From contig NZ_WUAX01000016.1 of assembly GCF_009806985.1 (NCBI RefSeq), positions 308,976 through 372,975 of the forward strand: a stretch of 64,000 nucleotides of DNA. Reading direction: 5' to 3'. The notes beneath the pieces were generated by a model that made no database searches, had not been told where the DNA came from, and saw only the letters and a program-made list of their open reading frames with translations. The DNA is from Halorubrum sp. JWXQ-INN 858 (GTDB lineage: Archaea; Halobacteriota; Halobacteria; Halobacteriales; Haloferacaceae). The position numbers and the translations under genes are program-made. This document shows, piece after piece, positions 2,660 to 18,792 of this stretch (within the stretch, counting starts at the first letter, position 1; each line of letters begins with the position of its first letter).

Positions 2660-4804
2660 ATGAGCCACGACGACTTCCCCACGGAGGACCCGGCGGTGGT
2701 GACCTGTGGACTGCCGTACGCGAACGGCGACCTCCACATCGGTCACCTCCGGACGTACGTCGGCGGCGACGTCTTCGCCCGCTCGCTCGAACGACTCGGC
2801 CAGGAGACCGCGTTCGTCTCCGGCTCCGACATGCACGGGACGCCCGTCGCGGTCAACGCCGAGCAGGCGGGCGTCTCGCCCGAGGCGTTCGCGCTCGACT
2901 GGCACGAGCAGTACGCGGCGACGTTCCCGGAGTTCAACGTCGCGTTCGACAACTACGGCCACACGCACGACGAGACGAACACGGCGGTCACCCAGGATCT
3001 GGTCCGCGATCTCGAGGCGGGCGGCCACGTGTACGAAAAGGAGATCATGGTCGCGTACGACCCCGTCGACGACCAGTTCCTCCCGGACCGCTACGTCGAG
3101 GGCACCTGCCCGTACTGCGGCGCACACGCCCGCGGCGACGAGTGTGACGAGGGCTGTCAGCGACACCTCGAGCCCGGCGAGGTGGAGGACCCCGTCTCGA
3201 CGATCAGCGGCAACCCCGCGGAGTACCGCGAGCGCACCCACAAGTTCTTCGAGGTCTCGGCGTTTGCCGACTACCTCTCCGGGTTCCTCGACCGGCTCGA
3301 GGGGACCTCCAACGCCCGGAACCAGCCGCGAGAGTGGATCGAACAGGGGTTACAGGACTGGTGTATCACCCGCGACATGGACTGGGGGATCGACTATCCC
3401 GGCGAGAACCCGCAGGACCTCGTCCTCTACGTCTGGGTCGACGCCCCGATCGAGTACGTTTCCTCGACGAAACAGTACACGGAACGCGTCGGTGCGGACG
3501 TCTTCGACTGGGAAGCGGCGTGGAAGGCCGGCGCGGCGGGGACGACCGAGGACCACCCCGATGGGGGCGAGATCGTCCACGTCATCGGTCGCGACATCAT
3601 CCAACACCACACGGTGTTCTGGCCGGCGATGTTGGAGGCGACGGGGCACACGGAGCCGCGTGCGGTGATGGCGTCCGGCTTCGTCACCCTCGGCGGGAAG
3701 GGGTTCTCGACCAGCCGCGACCGCGCGGTGTGGGCCGACGAGTACCTCGACGAGGGGTTCCACCCCGACCCGTTGCGCTACTACCTCGCGACCAACGGCG
3801 GGTTCCAGCAGGACGTCGACTTCTCGTGGGAGAAGTTCCGCGACCGCGTCAACACCGAGCTCGTGGGGACCGTCGGCAACTTCCTCTACCGGTCGCTGCT
3901 GTTCGCCCACCGGAACTACGACGACGCCCCGATCGCCGACGCGACGAGCGACGAGGTCGCGGCCCGGATCGACGAGGCAATCGCCGACTTCGAGGCCGCC
4001 GTGAACGACTACTCCATCCGCGCGGTCGGCGACGCCGTGACGGACCTCGCACGATACGGCAACGAGTACATCCAGCGCAACGAGCCGTGGAAGCTCGTCG
4101 ACGAGGACCCCGACGAGGCCGCCCGGGTGATCCACGACTGCGTGGCGATCGCGAAGGCGATCGCCGTCCTCTTCGAACCGATCGCCCCCGAGAAATGCGA
4201 GCGACTGTGGGACCAGCTCGGTGAAGCGGGGTCGGTCCACGACGTCACCGTCGAGGCGGCGCGCGCGGAGCCCGCAGGCGACCTCGCGGAGCCGGACGAG
4301 CTGTTCGAGCAGGTCGAAGACGACCGCGTCGAGGAGCTGAACGCGAAGCTCGAAGACCGCGTCGCCGCCGCGGAGGCGGACGACGAGCCCGGAGCGGACG
4401 GCGAAAGCGACGACGACACCACCGACGACGACACCACCGACGACGACACCGCCGACGACATGACCGACATCGAACCCCTCAGCGACGACCGCATCAGTTT
4501 CGACCAGTTCCAAGAGCTCGACATCCGCGTGGGTCGGATCGAGACCGCGGAGGGTATCGACGGCGCGGACGACCTCCTGGAGCTCCGGGTCGACCTCGGC
4601 GCGGAGACCCGGACGATCGTCGCGGGGCTCAAGCGGCTCCACGACGCCGACGACCTTCCCGGCACGAAGGTCGTGGTGCTCGCGAACATGGAGAAAGCGG
4701 AGCTGTTCGGCGTCGAGTCGAACGGGATGGTGCTCGCGGCCGGCGACGAGGCGGACCTCCTCACGACGTACGCCGACGCCGGGCCCGGAACGAAGGTCAG
4801 GTAG
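2660..4804 (+). CDS. metG: Methionyl-tRNA synthetase with C-terminal tRNA-binding domain
   Basis: This class I synthetase charges tRNA-Met with methionine in the cytoplasm. HIGH is at residues 26-29. A zinc knuckle with CPYC and a second Cys pair lies near residue 150, and the KMSKS-equivalent loop reads FSTSR near residue 347, as in archaeal-type MetRS. The anticodon-binding helical domain follows. After an acidic linker (~590-610) built from a 15-bp repeat encoding DDTTD units comes an EMAP-II/Arc1p-like OB-fold domain (LDIRVGRIE to the end) that binds tRNA. The open frame extends upstream to 2411 across the previous gene, but the ATG at 2660 begins the conserved N-terminus (MSHDDFPTEDPAVVTCGLPY). 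The protein is 714 residues. Confidence 0.96.
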   Translation: MSHDDFPTEDPAVVTCGLPYANGDLHIGHLRTYVGGDVFARSLERLGQETAFVSGSDMHGTPVAVNAEQAGVSPEAFALDWHEQYAATFPEFNVAFDNYGHTHDETNTAVTQDLVRDLEAGGHVYEKEIMVAYDPVDDQFLPDRYVEGTCPYCGAHARGDECDEGCQRHLEPGEVEDPVSTISGNPAEYRERTHKFFEVSAFADYLSGFLDRLEGTSNARNQPREWIEQGLQDWCITRDMDWGIDYPGENPQDLVLYVWVDAPIEYVSSTKQYTERVGADVFDWEAAWKAGAAGTTEDHPDGGEIVHVIGRDIIQHHTVFWPAMLEATGHTEPRAVMASGFVTLGGKGFSTSRDRAVWADEYLDEGFHPDPLRYYLATNGGFQQDVDFSWEKFRDRVNTELVGTVGNFLYRSLLFAHRNYDDAPIADATSDEVAARIDEAIADFEAAVNDYSIRAVGDAVTDLARYGNEYIQRNEPWKLVDEDPDEAARVIHDCVAIAKAIAVLFEPIAPEKCERLWDQLGEAGSVHDVTVEAARAEPAGDLAEPDELFEQVEDDRVEELNAKLEDRVAAAEADDEPGADGESDDDTTDDDTTDDDTADDMTDIEPLSDDRISFDQFQELDIRVGRIETAEGIDGADDLLELRVDLGAETRTIVAGLKRLHDADDLPGTKVVVLANMEKAELFGVESNGMVLAAGDEADLLTTYADAGPGTKVR

Positions 4805-14470: not shown

Positions 14471-14644
14471 ATGTCGCTTCTGGGACGGTACCTGGCGTGG
14501 TTCAACGAGCGCGGAACCGCGATGCAGTTCCTCTCCACGGCCGGGGTCTTGGGCGTGTTGTTCGCGCTGGGCGTGTATACCGCCGGGATCGCACCGGGGG
14601 TGCTGCTCGTGGTCGTGCTAATAGACCACTGGTATCGAGGCTGA
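14471..14644 (+). CDS. 57-residue hydrophobic protein, probably two membrane helices
   Basis: This short frame translates as an amphipathic start (MSLLGRYLAWFNERG) followed by two hydrophobic stretches (FLSTAGVLGVLFALGVYTAG and APGVLLVVVLIDHW) and the basic end YRG. Composition, a TATA-like element at leaderless spacing and its place between antiporter and halorhodopsin support a real small membrane protein of unknown role. I do not recognise a family. It could be missed by gene finders because of its size. Confidence 0.6.
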   Translation: MSLLGRYLAWFNERGTAMQFLSTAGVLGVLFALGVYTAGIAPGVLLVVVLIDHWYRG

Positions 14645-14740
14645 TCCGGCGCCGATACCCGAACGGAGCGACGCCGGACGGAGCGACGCCGGACGCCCGC
14701 GACGTCCCGCGACGACGTCCTCGGAACCGGGGAGGCCGCG

Positions 14741-14852
14741 TTCCGTCCGGATCCACTCCGTAGACGCGTTCCGTCCGGATCCACTCCGTAGACGCGTTCC
14801 GTCCGGATCCACTCCGTAGACGCGTTCCGTCCGGATCCACTCCGCGGACGCG
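14741..14852. repeat. 28-bp tandem repeat, four copies, downstream of hop
   Basis: Four 28-bp units, the first three nearly identical, each contain TTCCGTCCGGATCCACTCCG. They lie between the convergent ends of the 57-residue gene and hop. A second pair of about 15 bp (GGAGCGACGCCGGAC twice, from about 14666) precedes them. No promoter or gene is seen in the 14645-14913 gap. Confidence 0.92.
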
Positions 14853-14913
14853 TTGCTCCCGCGGAGCGTCGGCCCGAAAAACGAGTCGGCAGCGGCCGCG
14901 CGTTCGGTCCGGT

Positions 14914-15774
14914 TCAGTCGTCGGCCGGGGCGGCACCGCCGCGGTTGGCCGATCCGAGGCCGGGAGCCATGTTCGCGACCGTGGTTTCGTTGTTGACGAC
15001 CCAGTTCAACAGCAGGAACGCGAAGATGTACTTCGCGACGATGTCGAGCCCGCTGTAGGCCCACGAGGTGGTGGCGACGCCGATCAACGCGAATCCTTCA
15101 GCGCCGAGCGCCCAGAAGATCGGGTAGCCGAGCCACATCACCACGGTGAGGATCTTCAGCGTGTTGAAGATGTCCGCGGTGCCGGCGATCTCGGCGTCCT
15201 TGGGCCACTCGACGAGCAGGATGTACAGCACGACGAGGAAGAACGCACAGCTGATGACGTACCAGAACCACCGGAGCATGTAGGAGGACGTCGTCAGCGC
15301 GGCCGCGAGGCCGGTCACACACATCGCGATGTCGGTGACGATGATCGTGAACAGCTTCGTCGTGTTCGTGCCCGCGAGCAGTCCCAACGCGAGCAGGATC
15401 ATGGGCGTCGACAGCGCCCACGTGAGGTACCGACCCCACATCGTCAGGACCTCCTCGCCGGCCAGCGCGTGCCCCGGCGGCATCTCGAGGAAGCTTATCG
15501 TCAGCCCCGACGCCAGCCCGGTGTAACTCGAGATCGAGACGAGCGGCACCATAAGCGTCGCGACGAATATCAGCTGTGCCCGTGGGTCCTCCACGTTCCG
15601 TCCCATGTAGACGAACAGGAGGATCGAGAGCCCGGCGAGGGCGATGTTCGACCAGAAGGACAGGTTCAACAACGCGTCCTCCTGGATACGTTGGTACACC
15701 TCCGGCTGTGTGACCTCCTGTAACAGTATCGACTGTGCGAGTACCGGTGCGTCCGCAGCGAGCGCTTCTATCAT
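14914..15774 (-). CDS. hop: Halorhodopsin, light-driven inward chloride pump
   Basis: This seven-helix retinal protein of 286 residues sits in the cytoplasmic membrane. The Schiff-base lysine is Lys248 in LDIVAKYIF. The helix-C triad that separates rhodopsin classes reads Thr118, Ser122 and Ala129 (RYLTWALSTPMILLA). In bacteriorhodopsin these positions are Asp85, Thr89 and Asp96. Thr-Ser-Ala is the halorhodopsin signature, so it pumps Cl- rather than H+. RWFWYVISCAFFLVVLY and WLGYPIFWALG are the typical helices E-F. The gene is transcribed away from a Bat-like activator. A TATA-like element and a Bat-site-like motif lie directly upstream of its ATG. Confidence 0.96.
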   Translation of the reverse strand: MIEALAADAPVLAQSILLQEVTQPEVYQRIQEDALLNLSFWSNIALAGLSILLFVYMGRNVEDPRAQLIFVATLMVPLVSISSYTGLASGLTISFLEMPPGHALAGEEVLTMWGRYLTWALSTPMILLALGLLAGTNTTKLFTIIVTDIAMCVTGLAAALTTSSYMLRWFWYVISCAFFLVVLYILLVEWPKDAEIAGTADIFNTLKILTVVMWLGYPIFWALGAEGFALIGVATTSWAYSGLDIVAKYIFAFLLLNWVVNNETTVANMAPGLGSANRGGAAPADD

Positions 15775-15800
15775 GTCTCGGGATCACGTACACCGTGGCG

Positions 15801-15809
15801 AGGCTAAAC
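15801..15809 (-). promoter_or_regulatory. TATA-like element of hop
   Basis: The minus strand reads GTTTAGCCT, centred about 31 bases before the hop ATG at 15774, so the hop mRNA should be leaderless or nearly so. Confidence 0.55.
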
Positions 15810-15815
15810 GACACG

Positions 15816-15830
15816 ACCTAACCAGTAAGG
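15816..15830. promoter_or_regulatory. Candidate Bat-binding activator site upstream of hop
   Basis: ACCTAACCAGTAAGG on the plus strand resembles the activator element of the Halobacterium bop promoter as I remember it (ACC, then ACTAG, then TT, then G). Its centre is about 48 bases upstream of the expected hop start, just beyond the TATA element, the same geometry as at bop. A related AACCAGTA sequence occurs just before the bat start codon (15974-15983). The site assignment is an inference from motif and position. Confidence 0.5.
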
Positions 15831-15836
15831 TGCCCG

Positions 15837-15940
15837 CGGCCGGCGGGTGTCGAGACTGGAGCGGACGGCGGGTCGAAGCTCGAACGGCCGGCGGGTCGAA
15901 GCTCGAACGGCCGGCGGGTCGAGACTAGAGCGACCGGCGG
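15837..15940. repeat. 23-bp tandem repeat between the hop and bat promoters
   Basis: Four units of about 23 bp (the first is 25 bp) and a partial fifth, each with CGGCCGGCGGGTCGA or close variants, fill the space between the two divergent promoters. Units two and three are almost identical. Confidence 0.9.
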
Positions 15941-15952
15941 CGTTGGCCGACC

Positions 15953-15962
15953 GATAGCTTAT
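15953..15962 (+). promoter_or_regulatory. TATA-like element of the bat-like gene
   Basis: ATAGCTTATG-like sequence lies about 28 bases before the ATG at 15987, fitting a leaderless transcript and favouring this ATG over the in-frame GTG at 15963. Confidence 0.45.
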
Positions 15963-15986
15963 GTGACGCAAGACCAACCAGTACGT

Positions 15987-17975
15987 ATGGGGAGTACCCG
16001 CACCCTTCTCGTGCATCCCCGGGAAGACGCCGAGCGGATCGAGGCCGCACTCGAGACGGCCGACCGCTCGGTCACCGCGGTCGAGGCCGCGACCGAGGCG
16101 CTGGCGAGGCTCGGCCGCGAGGAGTACGACTGCGTCGTCTGCGAACACGACCTTCCCGGAGACGACGGGCTCGCGTTCCTGTCCGCGGTGAACGACTTAG
16201 AGCTGGACGTTCCGGTGCTCGTGTTCACCGGGACGGACGACGAGGAGGTCGCGAGCGCGGCCCTCGGCCGTGGGGCCGAGCGAGTCCTCCGCAAGGACGG
16301 GTCGGGGTGTCTCGACGAACTCGCCGAGGCGGTCGACGCGGCGACGCGACGCGCTCGGCCGCCGGCCACGGGACGGGACGTTTCGGGGCGTGAACCCGGC
16401 GTCGAGGCGATCGCACACGCCGTCTCGGAAGCGCCGATCGGGATCAGCCTGAGCGACCCGTCGCTTCCGGACTATCCGTTGGTGTTCGTCAACCGGGCGT
16501 GGACCGAGCTGACCGGGTACGACGAGTCCCAGCTGCTGGGGCGTAACCCTCGACTACTGCAGGGTTCCGGGACCGACCCCGACACGGTCGACCGGATCTC
16601 CGAGGCGATCGCGAACGAGGAGCCGGTGACCGTCGAGGTCCGAAACTACCGACGGGACGGGACGCCCTTCTGGAACGAGCTCTCGATCGCGCCGATCCAC
16701 GACGACGAGGGCGACCTCGTTCACTACGTTGGGTTCCAAAACGACGTCACGGAGCGCAAGCGTGCGGCAGCCCTCGCCGACGAACGCGCCGAACGGATCG
16801 CCGAGGAGCGACGGGCGTTGGACAGGCTCCTCGGGCGCGTGAACGGACTGCTCCGGGAGATCACACGGATACTCGTCGAGGCGTCCGACCGGGAGACCCT
16901 GGCCCGGTGCGTCTGTCGGGAGATCGCGTCGGACCCGGACTACGCCGGCGCGTGGATCGGGACCCTCGGTCCCGCACGACGGCGTATCGAAGTGACCGCC
17001 GCGGGTGGATCGGCTCCGGAGCCCGGAGTCGAACGTTCGCTCGAGGACACGCCGCGGGCGGTTCGCCAGGCGGTCGACGGCGGAGACCTCCGAGAGCAGC
17101 CCGCGGACGGGTCAGCGGTCGGGCCGTTCTCCCCGGATGCCGTCGGGGCCTCCCGGCTCGTCGTCGTTTCGCTGCGGCACGGTCGCTCCCGGCACGGCCT
17201 GCTCGGGGTGTACGTCACCGGCGAGACCGACTTCGACGGTCGGGAGCGGACCGTCCTCGACTCGTTGGGTCGGATGATCGCGAACGGGATCCACGCGGTC
17301 GAGACCGCTCGGATCCTGACCACCGACCGCGTCGTCGAGCTGTGCGTCGTCATGCGCGACGGGAACGACCCGCTGTCGCGGATCGCCGGCGCCCTCGACG
17401 CGACCATCGACTACCGTGGGGTCACGCGTCGCGACGGGGAGTACGTCCTCCACCTGTGTACCGAGGACGGGGGGCGGGACCTCTCCGCGGTCGAGTCGCT
17501 CGCGATGGTCTCGGCGGTGTACCCGCTGGCCGACGGTAAGGGACCGCGCTCGTTCGCGGTGGAGACCGCGGACGAGGCGCCGTTCCCGGGGGTGAGCGAG
17601 CACGGTGCAGTCGTCGCGAACGCGACCGCCGAGCCGGGTCGGACGCGGGTGACGATCGAGTCCCCGCCGGAAGGCGACGTCGGTCGGGTCCTGGACGCGT
17701 TGCGCTCCCGGTTCGGGTCGGTCGAACTGCGGTCGCGCACCGAGCGCGATCGGGGCGATAGAAACCTCTCGGAGCTGATCGGCGAGGTCGACGAGGGGCT
17801 CACCGAGCGCCAGCGGACCGCACTGGAGATCGCAACGAGGAACGGGTACTTCGACTGGCCGCGCCCCGTCGACGGCTCGGAGCTGGCGGAGACGATGGGT
17901 ATCACGAGACAGACGTTCCACCAGCACCTCAGGGCCGCACAGCGGGAGTTGTCCAATGCGTACATCGACCCCTGA
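15987..17975 (+). CDS. bat: Bat-like activator: pseudo-receiver, PAS, GAF and HTH_10 domains
   Basis: Residues ~1-125 have a receiver-like fold, but the acidic pair after strand 1 is missing (LLVHPRED) and the phospho-acceptor Asp position is Glu53 (VVCEHDLPG). Thr81 and Lys103 equivalents remain. A PAS domain with PAC motif follows (~130-250: VFVNRAWTELTGYDESQLLG, FWNELSIAPIHDDEG), then a coiled linker and a GAF domain (~285-430). The C-terminal bacterio-opsin-activator HTH (LTERQRTALEIATRNGYF, ELAETMGITRQTFHQHLR) is clear. Size and order match Bat, the redox/light-responsive activator of bop in Halobacterium. Its position divergent from hop suggests it controls halorhodopsin. A bat symbol is given on architecture and context; other HTH_10 paralogues exist. 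Confidence 0.8.
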   Translation: MGSTRTLLVHPREDAERIEAALETADRSVTAVEAATEALARLGREEYDCVVCEHDLPGDDGLAFLSAVNDLELDVPVLVFTGTDDEEVASAALGRGAERVLRKDGSGCLDELAEAVDAATRRARPPATGRDVSGREPGVEAIAHAVSEAPIGISLSDPSLPDYPLVFVNRAWTELTGYDESQLLGRNPRLLQGSGTDPDTVDRISEAIANEEPVTVEVRNYRRDGTPFWNELSIAPIHDDEGDLVHYVGFQNDVTERKRAAALADERAERIAEERRALDRLLGRVNGLLREITRILVEASDRETLARCVCREIASDPDYAGAWIGTLGPARRRIEVTAAGGSAPEPGVERSLEDTPRAVRQAVDGGDLREQPADGSAVGPFSPDAVGASRLVVVSLRHGRSRHGLLGVYVTGETDFDGRERTVLDSLGRMIANGIHAVETARILTTDRVVELCVVMRDGNDPLSRIAGALDATIDYRGVTRRDGEYVLHLCTEDGGRDLSAVESLAMVSAVYPLADGKGPRSFAVETADEAPFPGVSEHGAVVANATAEPGRTRVTIESPPEGDVGRVLDALRSRFGSVELRSRTERDRGDRNLSELIGEVDEGLTERQRTALEIATRNGYFDWPRPVDGSELAETMGITRQTFHQHLRAAQRELSNAYIDP

Positions 17976-18084
17976 GGCGGCCGGTTCGATCGCTTCCGCC
18001 GAGTCGTCGGCCCGGTCCGAACCGGTTAACCACGTCCGTCTCTCCGGTACGGATGTGACGACGCCCGATACCCTCGAGATCGAC

Positions 18085-18792
18085 ATGGACGTCCGGGACG
18101 TCGACGCCGTCGCCGACCGGCGCGACGAGGTCGTCGCCGCCGTCCGCGACCACGCCGCGACGATCGCCTACCAGCTCGCCCTGCTACAGGGGGGCGACTA
18201 CGGCCGGCGGGAGCTGTCGACGTCCGGCGGGGACTGGACCGTCAAACACGAGGCGGGCGAGCTGGAGTTCCTGTTGTTCTCGCCCAAGAGCGGCCCGGAC
18301 ACGTACGTCGTTTCCACGAAACAGCCGCCGGAGCCGGCGGCGCTCGCGACCGCCCTCGCCGACTACCCGAACCTCGTCGCGGCGTGGAACGCGTACGTCG
18401 ACTCGCTGGGGGGCGTCCTCGACGACGTCGACGTGGAGTTCCCGGAGCCGGCGTCGACGGGCGACCTCGTCGCGGAGCGCGACCGCGTGCTCTCGGCGAT
18501 CCGCGAGACGTGTGCGGTCATCGCCGGCGAGATCCACCGCTACGAGGGCGACGACTACGGCACGTTCACGACCCGCGTCGACGGCGCGCGGTGGGAGCTG
18601 AAGTGGGACGAGGGCGCGGTGTCGTACCTCCGCGTCGGCGGCTCCGGCGGGGTGTACCTCCTCTCGCAGTACGAACCGCCGTCGGCCGCCGACGTGCGCG
18701 AGCTCGTCGAGCCGTTCCGCGGCTTCGTCGACGCGTACAACGAGTTCGTCGACGACCTCGAGAGCGACCTCGAACGCGTCGAGTTGGGGTAG
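18085..18792 (+). CDS. Unknown acidic protein made of two homologous halves
   Basis: I do not recognise a named family. The 235 residues consist of two ~100-residue repeats. RRDEVVAAVRDHAATIAYQL aligns with ERDRVLSAIRETCAVIAGEI, GGDYGRRELSTSGGDWTVKH with GDDYGTFTTRVDGARWELKW, and NLVAAWNAYVDSL with GFVDAYNEFVDDL. Each half looks like helix, beta hairpins, helix. There is no signal peptide or membrane helix, so it is cytosolic. Start choice is uncertain: ATG 18085 gives MDVRDVDAV, while an in-frame GTG at 18055 adds ten residues. A TATA-like GGTTAACCA lies near 18033-18041. It follows the bat-like gene in the same direction. Confidence 0.75.
   Translation: MDVRDVDAVADRRDEVVAAVRDHAATIAYQLALLQGGDYGRRELSTSGGDWTVKHEAGELEFLLFSPKSGPDTYVVSTKQPPEPAALATALADYPNLVAAWNAYVDSLGGVLDDVDVEFPEPASTGDLVAERDRVLSAIRETCAVIAGEIHRYEGDDYGTFTTRVDGARWELKWDEGAVSYLRVGGSGGVYLLSQYEPPSAADVRELVEPFRGFVDAYNEFVDDLESDLERVELG

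Follow-up and report, generated by a model that had tools for sequence, protein, structure and literature searches.

A predicted Bat-type regulatory circuit for the halorhodopsin gene of Halorubrum sp. JWXQ-INN 858

Closest described systems

Control by the activator Bat through an upstream activator sequence (UAS) is the textbook example of oxygen- and light-regulated transcription in archaea and is known for bacteriorhodopsin. Here, we describe a locus of Halorubrum sp. JWXQ-INN 858, lying in a stretch of 64 kb (the window; contig NZ_WUAX01000016.1, positions 308,976 to 372,975 of the forward strand), in which a halorhodopsin gene (hop) is transcribed divergently from a bat gene and is preceded by a palindromic block, or dyad, predicted to be a Bat-type operator. 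The Halobacterium bop regulon (Bat with the UAS of bop, brp and crtB1) resembles it in having a regulator of the same LOV/PAS-GAF-BAT-HTH_10 family and a promoter block that is almost identical and equally far from TATA; genes of retinal synthesis also seem to be included. In contrast, the target in the window is a chloride pump and not bop, and the Bats, which share 33% identity, belong to sister clades and differ at the LOV cysteine position, which is occupied by Pro in the window and by His in Halobacterium.

The BAT-LOV* of Halorubrum hochstenium (Yee et al. 2015, PMC4682037) is like the window Bat in its receiver-LOV*-GAF-HTH order, in Pro188, Trp172, Tyr163 and Tyr247, and in the lack of Cys and Met between residues 141 and 275. 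That work dealt with the domain in isolation and considered it for bacteriorhodopsin only, whereas the window Bat is linked to hop in a genome without bop. The nine Halorubrum Bat orthologues of our tree, most of them linked to bop or brp, share about 51-53% identity with the window Bat. In Natronomonas pharaonis, halorhodopsin likewise occurs without bacteriorhodopsin, and hop is linked to biogenesis genes; this linkage was not found in other genomes then known, and we found no promoter analysis in that paper (Sharma et al. 2007, PMC1885257). Here, by comparison, hop and bat are linked repeatedly, in several genera, and the predicted operator is conserved.

Our preferred reading, with a probability of roughly 0.68, is a self-contained Bat-UAS-type halorhodopsin circuit with a likely redox input. 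Bat, probably as a dimer, would contact the CCNNACNNGTNNGG dyad in front of the hop TATA element through its HTH_10 domain and would switch on hop in the way proposed for Halobacterium Bat at bop. The likely signal would be the redox state of the flavin (low oxygen or a reducing environment), sensed via the LOV-like domain, and not blue light. Since hop is the sole rhodopsin gene, Bat would in effect be dedicated to the chloride pump in this genome. We infer Bat binding, hop activation and the redox signal from Halobacterium Bat biology, and leaderless transcripts are predicted as well.

Halorhodopsin gene and its operator

The hop gene (14914..15774, minus strand) encodes a protein of 286 aa belonging to the type-1 rhodopsin family (Pfam Bac_rhodopsin PF01036, 182 bits), with N. 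pharaonis halorhodopsin as the closest solved structure (3a7k, E=3e-112). Its helix C, RYLTWALSTPMILLALG, is identical to that of 3a7k and carries Thr-Ser-Ala, not Asp-Thr-Asp, and the retinal-binding lysine aligns with that of 3a7k within helix G (DIVAK). On this sequence evidence hop encodes a Thr-Ser-Ala halorhodopsin, for which light-driven chloride import is predicted. A first-pass annotation of the window had proposed a Thr-Ser-Ala rhodopsin gene divergent from an activator of Bat architecture, and the domain matches and the 3a7k alignment bear this out. The host genome (3.1 Mb, 16 contigs, 94% complete), of the same genus as the Halorubrum-like genomes searched, holds no other PF01036 gene and one carotene-cleaving Blh/Brp gene.

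The TATA element of hop is TTTA (15805..15808, minus strand, -34..-31), its TT being invariant or near-invariant in 34 hop promoters. Just beyond it, 57 nt ahead of the hop ATG, lies the predicted Bat-type operator ACCTTACTGGTTAGG (15817..15831, minus strand), which shows the same geometry as at Halobacterium bop; on the plus strand, ACCTAACCAGTAAGG is read at 15816-15830. Its 14-bp dyad core, CCNNACNNGTNNGG (15817-15830), is located 8 nt upstream of TATA. A 16-mer search allowing up to 3 mismatches gave one match in the window against 0.01 expected. Pattern searches, from which all genome-wide motif counts for the host were taken, found CCNNACNNGTNNGG alone 73 times, which is only mildly unusual, so that the significance of the dyad comes from its conservation across hop promoters.

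This conservation was evident when we aligned the sequences preceding 34 hop genes that share 71% identity or more with the window hop. The columns CC (-56,-55), AC (-52,-51), GT (-48,-47) and GG (-44,-43), followed by TATA at -34..-31, were 88-100% identical, while most flanking columns were about 25-45% identical and thus near random. A score of at least 9/12 at -58..-56 was reached by 30 of the 34 promoters and by 0.18% of control positions, and all eight dyad bases were present at -55..-57 in 30/36 related hops. The first-pass annotation had suggested examining related hop promoters for conservation relative to TATA, and its claim of a Bat-type element just beyond the hop TATA thus stood up. 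The asymmetric ACC...ACTAG motif that it had in mind did not, the element being instead a dyad. The bop-type UAS is likewise characterized by an ACC/AC/G-T/GG block that directly precedes TATA at a constant distance, and our data support the view that the hop block is a Bat-type dyad element held at a fixed distance from TATA.

The UAS comparison was made to a Halobacterium promoter itself. One assembly was taken by us to be H. salinarum, as its bop product is 100% identical to the known protein. Since its bop starts near a contig start with a changed N-terminus, a congener of H. salinarum (bop 92%) served as the control. In the control bop promoter, ACCATACTGATTGGG stands a few nucleotides from ATTACTC, and the dyad core CCATACTGATTGGG matches at 7/8 bases with the same TATA spacing. 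Halorubrum bop promoters likewise carry a 7/8 version, and the hop promoters of three Halobacterium genomes revealed no such dyad. Because the Halobacterium block precedes bop and its hop promoters lack it, the site is a feature of bop promoters in Halobacterium and of hop promoters in relatives of the window. In the presumed H. salinarum assembly, the altered first residues of bop (locus L186, 1-130) suggest an insertion-element junction in the gene.

Bat as the likely reader of the dyad

The bat gene (15987..17975, plus strand, 662 aa) ends in an HTH_10 DNA-binding domain (residues 605-655, 17799..17951, plus strand) with the recognition-helix signature TRQTFHQHLRAA. Phylogenetic analysis unveiled two clades of Bats, namely B, with Halobacterium Bat and Bats mostly beside bop-like genes, and H, with all hop-linked Bats. 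The window Bat falls into clade H, which is set apart from clade B with 100/98 support in a midpoint-rooted tree without outgroup; Halorubrum Bats are nested inside clade H. In a 17-row set (96/95), the window Bat sits on a long branch that may group with either the divergent-pair clade or Halorubrum. A hop-linked ancestry of clade H is suggested by this outgroup-free tree.

Whole genomes were searched for Bat in 32 named hop carriers and two others, and the Bat of one further genome (L017) was assigned by hop kinship. Bat-like matches in four Natrialbaceae genomes, having HEHL and not HQHL, were treated as a different paralogue. All 31 genomes assigned an H- or B-type Bat have at least 7/8 dyad bases, 29 of them the full eight, while the five genomes without such a Bat show one 8/8 dyad, two 7/8 and two at 4 and 6 (full dyad 29/31 versus 1/5; Fisher p=0.001, ignoring ancestry). 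The form of the dyad also varies with the type of Bat. H-type Bats have the recognition helix TRQTFHQHL and a GRNPR LOV, whereas in Halorubrum the B-type Bats show RSTFHQHL in the helix and GRNCRFLQ in the LOV. A hop dyad ending in ..TTGGG was found in 7/8 B-type Halorubrum and in 0/21 H-type rows (Fisher p=5e-6, again ignoring ancestry), so that within Halorubrum the RQT helix and Pro-LOV go with ..AGG, and the RST helix and Cys-LOV with ..TTGGG.

Several observations weigh against this reading. The hop tree requires four changes of the dyad base and five of the Bat type, but only two well-supported independent pairs, and the association of dyad form with Bat type was not significant by a tree-aware test; Bat loss and dyad decay likewise give two independent pairs. 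A B-type genome (L014) and a Bat-less one (L027) break the pattern, and the divergent pairs of three Halonotius loci (L036, L037, L039) have no recognisable dyad in their intergenic regions. There are, moreover, 17 HTH_10 genes in the host genome, and the site could be read by a paralogue of Bat. In Halobacterium, the zinc-finger protein Brz affects bop while bat mRNA is unchanged, and an indirect action of Bat via Brz has been proposed (PMC2253796).

The last two points feed the strongest of the alternatives, in which the operator is real but has a different reader, either a further HTH_10 paralogue or a zinc-finger protein like Brz, and Bat acts indirectly or on other genes; L027, which keeps its dyad without an H- or B-type Bat, would suit it. 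We regard it as unlikely, though it deserves to be taken seriously: the dyad form follows the recognition-helix type of Bat, the dyad is decayed in the Bat-less L029, L030, L031 and L185, and no small CPxCG protein was found anywhere in the window. Although independent switches are few, the association supports Bat over the other 16 HTH_10 paralogues as the reader of the dyad.

Domain structure of Bat and its likely signal

The window Bat is of the H type, with a pseudo-receiver, a Cys-less LOV, a GAF-like, a BAT and an HTH_10 domain. Pfam detected Response_reg, PAS_9 (82 bits), BAT PF15915 (100 bits) and HTH_10 PF04967 (73.6 bits); GAF_2 reached 25.6 bits, under the cut-off of 28.6, and LOV families match clearly. 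To the Bat architecture noted in the first-pass annotation, a receiver domain and the LOV character, both missed before, are to be added. The receiver is probably a pseudo-receiver because the phosphorylatable Asp, expected four residues before a conserved Pro, is replaced by Glu53 (CEHDLPGDDG); Glu at this position is common to most of the Bat clade.

The LOV* domain (residues 141-275; 16407..16811, plus strand) reads GRNPRLLQG where a canonical LOV has GXNCRFLQ, so that Pro188 occupies the position of the adduct-forming Cys. Trp172, Tyr163, Tyr247 and Asn252 are present, Cys and Met are absent from 141-275, and the window Bat agrees with the Cys-less BAT-LOV* at every position studied there (PMC4682037). 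BAT-LOV* binds flavin but photoreduces poorly owing to Trp172, and it changes its conformation upon chemical flavin reduction (PMC4682037). With Pro188 where the adduct Cys would be and Trp172 kept, as in BAT-LOV*, flavin redox is by analogy a likelier input for the window Bat than blue light. Of the oxygen or light regulation previously proposed, the redox side is therefore the one we predict.

A circuit in which the LOV domain signals by flavin photoreduction and blue light induces the chloride pump is improbable. Cys-less LOV domains can signal via the neutral semiquinone (PMC4682037), but wild-type BAT-LOV*, with the same Pro188 and Trp172 as the window Bat, photoreduces poorly, and Cys-LOV Bats occur in the same genus, meaning that the photochemistry was available and the window gene lacks it.

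Together with the two dyad forms, this leads us to a more tentative proposal, which we would put at somewhat below even odds. Within one genus, orthologous hop promoters may be wired either to a Pro-LOV Bat (redox; RQT helix, ..AGG) or to a Cys-LOV Bat (blue light; RST helix, ..TTGGG), the operator changing with the regulator, and the chloride pump may swap redox and light control by a swap of Bat; the window would then represent the pure redox, chloride-pump-only state. A Bat-type element conserved in front of hop, next to a gene for a probable redox-sensing regulator, points to a link between chloride pumping and oxygen or redox state similar to that of bacteriorhodopsin. If true across Halorubrum and relatives, chloride pumping would be redox-controlled there, unlike in Halobacterium with its site-less hop promoters. 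Two Bat types paired with two operator forms offer a direct route to test both Bat sensing and DNA reading by HTH_10.

The bat promoter and the wider regulon

The bat transcript is probably leaderless from the ATG at 15987, and that of hop probably likewise. A TATA-like element, CTTATG (15958..15963, plus strand), precedes bat, with a T at -28 that is invariant in 17 orthologues. Downstream of it, the bat-side core (A)CCAACCAGTA (15973..15983, plus strand) is conserved only in CNAAC at -13..-9 (15974-15978), with which AACCAGTA (15976-15983) overlaps. Autoregulation of bat via AACCAGTA had been suggested; the sequence does lie between the bat TATA and the ATG as described, but the alignment of bat upstream regions conserves the T at -28 and CNAAC and no dyad. 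For the bat-side core, a role as a promoter-proximal element is likelier than one as a Bat operator.

This bears on a further alternative, namely that Bat represses hop, or that one dyad controls hop and bat jointly from the shared intergenic region. Shared control is typically seen with a palindromic site between divergent genes, and in a Halovenus pair (L058) a second near-dyad lies towards bat. Yet the window dyad stands in front of the hop TATA, in the position from which bop is activated, and about 130 bp from the bat TATA with no fixed spacing to bat, so we consider such an arrangement quite unlikely. A GC-rich 23-bp tandem repeat (x4.4, 15837-15940) fills the intergenic space between the dyad and the bat promoter.

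In the host genome, ACCNNACYRGTNNGG occurs 13 times by strand, at about 11 places. Without the GC-rich CG-centred sites, three places remain, at hop, in a coding region and upstream of crtY; the coding-region site (C1:288916) was discarded. The crtY dyad, ACCTGACTGGTTCGG, stands 106 nt upstream of crtY in the genome's only crtY-blh (retinal synthesis) operon, which suggests that retinal supply could be co-induced through a second dyad. The same kind of site was found upstream of crtY in two hop-bat-crtY-blh clusters. A family-wide hop and crtY-blh regulon was rejected, the crtY dyad being absent in most other genomes tested; co-regulation of retinal supply with hop is plausible in this genome but not general.

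Linkage of hop and bat

Divergent hop-bat pairs were found in Halonotius, Halohasta and a Halovenus metagenome-assembled genome, and tandem pairs in three further genera. In two genomes (L178, L179), hop-bat-crtY-blh run in a row and are all oriented alike; a dyad precedes crtY, a 57-aa gene lies antisense between hop and bat, and the Bats of both retain the LOV cysteine (GRNCRFLQ). For Halorubrum, hop-bat adjacency as a rule is refuted: the orthologous Bat is located some 30-46 kb away from hop, in most cases close to bop or brp. Adjacency is not what makes the circuit, because most Halorubrum hops have the dyad though Bat lies elsewhere. The earlier idea of a Bat dedicated to halorhodopsin accordingly agrees with the absence of another rhodopsin from the genome, but the element also occurs where hop and bat are not adjacent.

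That the neighbourhood is incidental and the dyad an inherited relic without regulation would fit the many Halorubrum that carry the dyad without adjacency, but is very improbable given base-specific conservation at fixed spacing amid randomised flanks and a hop-bat linkage recurring in several genera. In Halohasta salina (L040, ~3638-4726), a shortened hop-linked Bat of about 427 aa has no LOV domain, which makes it a natural LOV-less form, and the hop dyad ACCGTACCAGTTAGG is intact.

Other features of the locus

A 278-aa open reading frame (17956-18792, plus strand) overlaps the 3' end of bat; it had no match in Pfam or NCBIfam and no homologues among the fetched loci. Convergent with hop, a gene at 14471..14644 (plus strand) encodes a 57-aa, probably two-pass membrane protein (MSLLGRYLAWFNERG...). 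Among the fetched loci, its homologues were found only directly downstream of hop and convergent with it (L015, L019, L040/L165, L178, L179), and it is possibly the counterpart, for hop, of the small Bap protein in bop clusters. The region downstream of hop also contains a 28-bp tandem repeat (x4.2, 97% matches) at 14737-14854.

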